46,428 nucleotides of DNA. Origin: Clostridiales bacterium. GTDB lineage: Bacteria > Bacillota > Clostridia > Christensenellales > Borkfalkiaceae. Where the stretch lies: positions 1-46,428 of the forward strand of contig SVHP01000005.1 of the NCBI GenBank assembly GCA_015055735.1. Direction: 5' to 3'. A program made the position numbers and the translations under genes. The notes under the pieces were generated by a model, which was not told the origin of the DNA, did no database searches, and worked only from the letters and a program-made list of their open reading frames with translations. Positions 28,754 through 29,991 of the stretch are shown here, piece after piece (positions within the stretch are counted from its first letter, which is position 1; every line of letters starts with the position of its first letter).

Positions 28754-28839
28754 TATAAAATCCATTTTTTACAAAAAAACCTATCAAATCACTAGTATTT
28801 GATTGACTAAAAGAACAATAAATGGTAAAATAATAATTC

Positions 28840-28927
28840 GGCGGGATTAAATTCCCGCCAAACAAAATTTAGTTTCATGAACGGAAATTTCCGAATCCGT
28901 TTTCTGAATATCGAAATAAACTAAGGA
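28840..28927 (+). promoter_or_regulatory. Structured 5' region of rpsL
   Basis: GGCGGGA/TCCCGCC hairpin (28840-28859), then TAGTTT (28870-28875)/AAACTA (28918-28923) closing stem enclosing ACGGA/TCCGT and TTTC/GAAA; SD AAGGAGG follows directly. Confidence 0.5.
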
Positions 28928-28935
28928 GGTGCGAT

Positions 28936-29307
28936 ATGCCAACAATTCAACAGTTAATCAGACAAGGTAGAGCAAAGATTACTTATAAGTCAAAGGCTCC
29001 AGCATTGGACGAATGTCCTCAAAAGCGTGGTGTTTGCTTATCAGTAACTACAACCACACCAAAGAAGCCTAACTCAGCGCTTCGTAAAATTGCTCGTGTA
29101 CGTTTGACAAACAAGGCTGAAGGTATCGTTTATATTCCTGGTGAAGGTCACAACCTACAAGAACACAGCTCTGTTCTTATCCGTGGCGGAAGGGTTAAAG
29201 ACTTACCTGGTGTAAGATATCATATCATTCGTGGTGCATTAGATACTGCAGGCGTTGCAAAACGTCGTCAATCAAGATCTAAATACGGCGCTAAACGTCC
29301 TAAATAA
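28936..29307 (+). CDS. rpsL: 30S ribosomal protein S12
   Basis: 123 aa; [54 protein letters not shown]. Confidence 0.99.
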
Positions 29308-29358
29308 GATCGCCTAATTAAACTACACGAAAACAAAAATTAAAACAACAAAAAGACA

Positions 29359-29494
29359 CCTACTTATAATCGATATTCGGAAAATTAACTCGATTTAGTA
29401 GGCAGTATGTCGAAAGACAGAAGGTTCGCTACTAGAAATAGCAAGCGATAGCTGTACTGAAATAAGGGTTTACCCTTAAATGCACGAAAAGTGC
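29359..29494 (+). promoter_or_regulatory. Highly structured rpsL-rpsG intergenic RNA (candidate ribosomal protein leader)
   Basis: Stem CCTACT+ATCGA/TCGAT+AGTAGG; three-way junction CAGTA/TACTG with two GAAA-capped arms; hairpins TAAGGG/CCCTTA and GCAC/GTGC before the SD. Confidence 0.6.
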
Positions 29495-29520
29495 GATAAA
29501 ATTTAAAGGAGGATTTAATT

Positions 29521-29991
29521 ATGCCAAGAAGAGGCAATATTGCAAAAAGAGATGTTTTACCAGATCCAGTGTACGGCGATAAAGTAATTACAAAGCTTAT
29601 CAACCAAGTTATGCTAGACGGTAAAAAAGGCATCGCGCAAGGCATCGTTTACGAAGCATTTACCGTTGCAGCAGAAAAAGTTGGTCAAGATCCAAAAGAA
29701 GTTTTTGCTCAAGCTTTGAATAACATTATGCCTATGGTAGAAGTAAAGGCAAGGAGAGTCGGTGGTGCAAACTATCAAGTTCCAATCGAAATCCGTGCTG
29801 AAAGAAGACAAACGCTAGCAATTAGATGGTTAGTTGCTGCTGCAAGAAAGAGAGGCGAAAGAGAAATGGCTGCTAGACTTGCTGCCGAACTCGTTGACGC
29901 ATTCAACAACACTGGTAGTGCTGTTAAGAAGAAAGAAGACACTCACAGAATGGCTGAAGCAAACAAGGCTTTCGCACATTATAGATTTTAA
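29521..29991 (+). CDS. rpsG: 30S ribosomal protein S7
   Basis: 156 aa; [40 protein letters not shown]. Confidence 0.99.

Follow-up and report, generated by a model that had tools for sequence, protein, structure and literature searches.

The window, by which we mean the whole stretch of 46,428 nucleotides that was analysed, carries rpoB, rpoC, rpsL, rpsG, fusA and tuf in this order on its + strand and, as a separate observation, a cluster of seven tRNA genes at 2013–2906 on the − strand. The intercistronic gap between rpsL and rpsG had been singled out by a first-pass annotation as a candidate ribosomal-protein-binding leader. We distinguish the following features (window coordinates, all on the + strand):

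28936–29307, +: rpsL (ribosomal protein S12), the upstream cistron, from its ORF and sequence
29308–29520, +: rpsL-rpsG intercistronic region of 213 nt containing the leader RNA (folding z-score −3.51)
29357–29478, +: conserved RNA motif found family-wide (136.6 bits with covariance model R1, 115.8 bits with R2)
29359–29402, +: helix P1 (29359–29364/29397–29402) enclosing helix P2 (29369–29373/29390–29394), with a variable internal loop
29403–29423, +: sarcin-ricin-like module, comprising C29403, AGUA (29404–29407), hairpin P4, GAA (29420–29422) and G29423
29408–29419, +: hairpin P4 (29408–29411/29416–29419), with the strongest covariation, which remains significant on the structure-blind alignment
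29426–29448, +: hairpin P5, consisting of P5a (29426–29430/29444–29448) and P5b (29432–29434/29439–29441), both significantly covarying
29449–29459, +: conserved tail UAGCUGUACUG, containing the 3′ strand that the first-pass annotation paired with CAGUA (a possible alternative conformation)
29464–29477, +: hairpin P6, AAGGG-TTTA-CCCTT, with covariation significant on model-fitted alignments only
29482–29494, +: variable GC hairpin ahead of the ribosome-binding site, seen in the sequence and present in the genus but not conserved
29505–29512, +: rpsG Shine-Dalgarno sequence (AAAGGAGG), from the sequence
29521–29991, +: rpsG (ribosomal protein S7), probably both regulator and target, from its ORF and relatives

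The description of the gap as long and densely structured held, with a fold of −48.8 kcal/mol compared to −34.8 kcal/mol for dinucleotide shuffles (z = −3.51; none of 200 shuffles was as good). The complementary segments that had been pointed out are likewise all present, namely CCTACT/AGTAGG (P1), ATCGA/TCGAT (P2), the arms TGTC-GAAA-GACA (P4) and TCGCT..AGCGA with CTA/TAG inside (P5), and two further hairpins ahead of the Shine-Dalgarno sequence (29464–29477 and 29482–29494). No Rfam 15 family scored above its gathering threshold in the gap, even in a permissive scan, the best chance matches (17 and 14 bits) remaining far below. A transcription attenuator upstream of rpsG might be considered, since predictions place such elements close to rpsL in other bacteria (PMC2965389), but the + strand of the gap contains no intrinsic terminator and A-rich sequence follows P6, so that we regard this explanation as very improbable. 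Upstream of rpsL (28803–28935) we observed a promoter-like TTGACT-17-TAAAAT followed by a variable GC hairpin and, ahead of the rpsL Shine-Dalgarno sequence, a conserved stretch AACGGAA.TTTCCGAATCCGTTTTC.GAATA.CCGAAA that is present in nearly all members of the genus. This element may be a separate rpsL (S12) leader.

Of the 44 genomes of the window's genus, 32 yielded rpsG, and the motif is present in exactly those 32. The 12 genomes without the motif are the 12 without an rpsG match, and the gaps in the distribution therefore reflect incomplete assemblies. All 30 genus loci that we read show the pattern CCTAC..ATCGG..CCGAT..GTAGGCAGTATG-hairpin-CAGAAGGTTCGCTACC..GGCAAGYGATAGCYGTACT..AAGGGTTTACCCTT ahead of rpsG. 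A covariance model built from the genus loci (R1) matched 257 of the 398 genomes of the window's bacterial family, covering all 18 sampled genera and nearly always with one copy. A second covariance model (R2) matched 72 of 90 genomes in one genus, 76 of 101 in another and 33 of 57 in a third (53 of 61, 55 of 58 and 11 of 12 when only good-quality genomes are counted). Outside the family, one sampled genome of the order passed, and none of those of the class did. The relatives' genomes are mostly incomplete metagenome assemblies, the named GTDB contigs among them are from gut Clostridia, the family is probably Borkfalkiaceae (order Christensenellales), and the E-values of the models are rough.

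The position of the motif is steady. In alignment A3, rpsL lies upstream at all 90 sites and rpsG 22–158 nt downstream at 88 of them; at one further site (L070) the distance is 600 nt, and at the last the rpsG start could not be located. A fixed place upstream of a ribosomal-protein gene, one criterion for a ribosomal-protein leader, is thus met. At three loci (L070, L072 and L049) the motif is intact though 138–600 nt from rpsG, and one genome (G010) has two rpsG loci (contigs C15 and C17) with the motif at each, which may be a mixed assembly.

Covariation-supported secondary structure, a further criterion for such leaders, is also met. In alignment A4, which holds 100 family sequences, 94% of cells pair and 22 of the 32 pairs changed on both sides, with shuffled and slid structures far below. 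Our covariation test was written in the style of R-scape, using a FastTree tree, parsimony substitutions re-dealt among columns and a G-test with average-product correction. All seven significant pairs in A3 fall in the structure, as do seven of the nine in A4, the remaining two extending P4. Because A3 and A4 were fitted to the model, we repeated the test on a structure-blind MAFFT alignment, in which P4, P5a and P5b were again significant and P6 was not. P1 is 99% paired and almost invariant; P2 is about 88% paired and shows some double changes without being significant alone, and the tail (29449–29459) shows no covariation and changes on one side only. An Rfam match or an absence of covariation, either of which would have refuted the proposed leader, was thus not found. 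The GNRA-type loops ascribed to both arms are there in the window sequence but failed as a conserved feature, the loops of P4 and P5 differing in length and sequence among relatives. One relative (L048, 1520–1960) carries an insertion of about 400 nt inside the P5 loop with both P5 strands kept, which probably constitutes independent support for the helix; two others (L068 and L080) similarly have roughly 100–400 nt inserted into this loop and retain both strands.

The comparison of relatives establishes that the RNA between rpsL and rpsG has a conserved structure, is almost always present once per genome and contains an invariant module. GGCAGUA and GAAG are identical in 100 of 100 relatives on either side of the freely covarying P4, as expected for a non-Watson-Crick module. 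The first-pass annotation had instead read CAGTA/TACTG (29403–29407/29455–29459) as the helix closing a three-way junction. These segments are complementary in the window, but the pairing failed as a conserved helix: the 5′ strand is invariant while the 3′ strand varies (the outer pair is unpaired in 19 of 98 distinct sequences and the next pair in six), the tests on A3 and A4 found no covariation for it, and the RNAalifold consensus omits it. We therefore rejected it as a conserved junction-closing helix, although it may form as an alternative conformation.

The sarcin-ricin (bulged-G) motif, described in PMC8450098, is marked at the sequence level by an AGUA that immediately precedes a helix and a GAA that immediately follows it. 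AGUA, P4 and GAA are probably better read as such a module, of which CAGTA is one half, than as part of a junction-closing helix, a reading that is inferred from sequence alone. The leader shares with the sarcin-ricin (loop E) motif the AGUA/GAA consensus between two helices, and AGUA stands opposite GAA without Watson-Crick covariation, so that the sequence criterion is met while the three-dimensional base-pair pattern is only inferred. It differs from the prototype in probably lacking the outer non-Watson-Crick pair, as is reported for the version at a 16S rRNA junction (PMC8450098). Two caveats apply: the module was recognised after inspection and is a short pattern of seven fixed bases, and its AGUA strand can also pair with the downstream UACU, which leaves room for a fold other than the module.

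The invariant bases also bear on the possibility of a ligand-free structured spacer that shields rpsG from the translation of rpsL or determines how the mRNA is processed or how stable it is. In favour of a spacer, the hairpins near the ribosome-binding site vary freely and insertions within or after the motif are tolerated in some relatives. Yet bases outside the Watson-Crick helices (GGCAGUA, GAAG and AUAGC) are fixed over 18 genera, a constraint not required of a spacer, and we consider this explanation unlikely.

Sarcin-ricin motifs are reported at three places in 16S rRNA, among them a sarcin-ricin-like one at the h28/h29/h43 junction (PMC8450098). In E. coli 16S rRNA, AGUA (1346–1349) and GAA (1373–1375) flank h43, and S7 crosslinks at C1378 in 30S subunits (PMC3548175); the 16S rRNA of the window's own genus has GCUAGUAAUCCCGA..UCGGGGUGAAUGCG, again AGUA-helix-GAA. 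The leader and this junction both have a variable hairpin (P4 and h43, respectively) that is immediately preceded by AGUA and immediately followed by GAA, and in both a helix enters AGUA from the 5′ side (P1 and h29). In contrast to the junction, the strands of the leader are connected in a permuted order, nothing in it corresponds to the 934–938 strand that joins h28 to h29, P5a resembles h29 only partly, and C29403-G29423 stands in place of U1345/U1376. We do not claim P5a (CAAGYGAU/UUCGCUA) as a mimic of h29, given the partial similarity, the permuted strand order and its departure from the lineage's own h29.

The E. coli S7 protein represses its own operon by binding the S12-S7 intercistronic region, with an effect on the translation that is coupled from rpsL (PMC10931766); this is the str target reportedly described by Saito and Nomura, which the same article reviews. 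In E. coli, the gap between rpsL and rpsG reads GUUA-AGUA-AGG...CCU-GAA-UUAAC, and such a module appeared in 12 of 2000 shuffles of this gap. The element that is invariant in the leader is hence the element common to 16S h43 and the known S7 mRNA target. Two criteria of likeness to the E. coli target are met, the location between rpsL and rpsG and the AGUA-helix-GAA shared with 16S rRNA, and S7 as the ligand would be a further likeness, which is proposed for the leader without binding data. The same overall secondary structure is a criterion that is not met, as helices and spacing differ: the E. coli gap has 96 nt and a short helix joining the AGUA and GAA strands closes a loop of about 50 nt, whereas in the leader a short hairpin caps the module, and P1/P2, P5 and P6 lie to its sides. 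By analogy, the leader probably resembles the E. coli target in its working and is not its homologue by structure.

Two further explanations concern the ligand. The RNA might be a protein-binding leader whose ligand is S12 or some other component of the operon, since it directly follows rpsL and ligand assignment by position can be wrong (PMC7247131). Against this, the RNA adjoins rpsG, its module matches an rRNA site near S7 and not an S12 site, the known E. coli target at the same place binds S7, and there is a separate conserved element ahead of rpsL; we hold this alternative to be improbable. A small-molecule riboswitch within the operon would fit the compact form and the conserved unpaired junction bases, but there is no Rfam match, the motif was found only ahead of rpsG and the module matches an rRNA site, leaving this explanation highly unlikely.

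The module extends beyond the family. Reading gaps directly, we found that three further families of the order have diverged homologues (L344, L348 and L351; L354; L365 and L381–L383), which all carry GCAGUAUG-hairpin-CAGAAG or a sequence near it and retain the AGUA/GAA module while P4 and P5 change. We also read the rpsL-rpsG gaps of 61 Clostridia genomes from other orders. All 52 gaps of at least 80 nt have an AGUA/GAA module whose inner helix is formed with the rpsG Shine-Dalgarno sequence (GAGUACC...AAGGAGGGAAG), compared to 8.7 of 52 expected when the upstream part was shuffled (maximum 13 in 50 rounds). GAGUACC and GGGAAG are found in 51 of the 52 long Clostridia gaps, as opposed to one and two, respectively, of 56 short gaps and none of 23 other long gaps. 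Two loci (L416 and L119) have AGUA-AC...GU-GAA, a C-G to A-U change in the inner helix. A plain alignment of this Clostridia-wide motif gave no RNAalifold consensus structure because hairpin lengths vary, and we assessed it by anchored counts instead. At the loci tested, Rfam did not match the motif; the single match, raiA in L100, lies elsewhere. We take the Clostridia-wide module, again judged from sequence alone, as support for S7 as the ligand and also as a separate finding. Its layout is GCAC..GAC-hairpin-GAGUACC...hairpin...AAGGAGGGAAG (loci L369 and L390–L449, also L087, L095, L100, L104, L112, L114 and L119). Three gaps contain an extra hairpin AGUAAUCCCG..CGGGGUGAAG closely like 16S h43 itself (L417, at gap position about 152–175, L087 and L095).

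The first-pass annotation had proposed a lineage-specific S7 leader with 16S mimicry, and this proposal is supported by the distribution, the position ahead of rpsG and the shared AGUA/GAA module. We consider it likely that the RNA is an S7 autoregulatory leader acting via an h43-like module, with the reservation that all evidence is comparative and there are no binding or expression data. In the inferred mechanism, S7 without free 16S rRNA to bind would bind the AGUA-P4-GAA module, which would adopt the sarcin-ricin fold seen at the base of 16S h43 and be flanked in the junction by helices P1 and P5. Binding would lock the leader and lower translation of rpsG, probably also that of fusA further downstream, by impeding either the entry of ribosomes or the coupling from rpsL, in the manner of the E. 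coli str operon. The effect on translation is the weakest step of this inference. In the window, about 28 nt separate P6 from the Shine-Dalgarno sequence, and the predicted ensembles of the window RNA contain no conserved pairing partner for the latter. The step from binding to repression is therefore not visible in the sequence, and an effect on coupling or stability is as likely as direct occlusion. Sequestration of the Shine-Dalgarno sequence by the 3′ half of P6 (CCCUU against AAGG) was rejected, as the predicted ensembles have no conserved partner and P6 changes freely. Pairing of the UACU tail with AGUA could give a two-state switch, which the data neither support nor exclude.

Among known RNAs, the Pelagibacter rpsL motif and predicted rpsL leaders (PMC2704228, PMC2965389) are likewise structured RNAs tied to the str operon, but most of them are located ahead of rpsL or in the rpsG-fusA gap, and reportedly they have no common feature. 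The r-leaders of Eckert and Weinberg 2020 (PMC7247131), among them the Clostridia S4 leader, are similar in being covarying conserved RNAs ahead of ribosomal-protein genes, but their table of 20 contains no S7 or S12 leader. The RNA family described here is not in Rfam; a prior description of either motif is not excluded, as we covered open-licence literature only.

Nearly all work on how S7 regulates the str operon has been done in E. coli, and the lack of studies in other phyla is regretted in a 2024 review (PMC10931766). In a survey from 2010, str leaders showed no shared feature, and the question was raised of whether all of them could bind S7 (PMC2965389). The present leader is a statistically supported S7-leader candidate with a concrete seven-base module. 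A bolder reading, towards which we lean by a narrow margin, is that AGUA/GAA, taking the sarcin-ricin fold seen at the base of 16S h43, serves as a general S7 recognition signal of str-operon mRNAs, spanning E. coli, the window's family, with the module detached from the ribosome-binding site, and Clostridia, with the module around the Shine-Dalgarno sequence and closed by S7 itself. The arrangement across Clostridia points to a direct means by which S7 could conceal the Shine-Dalgarno sequence. If the bolder reading is true, unrelated-looking leaders would be one solution rebuilt in different scaffolds. If confirmed, the module would be a shared S7 signal that earlier surveys missed, and whether there is one S7 code or many would become a directly testable question.
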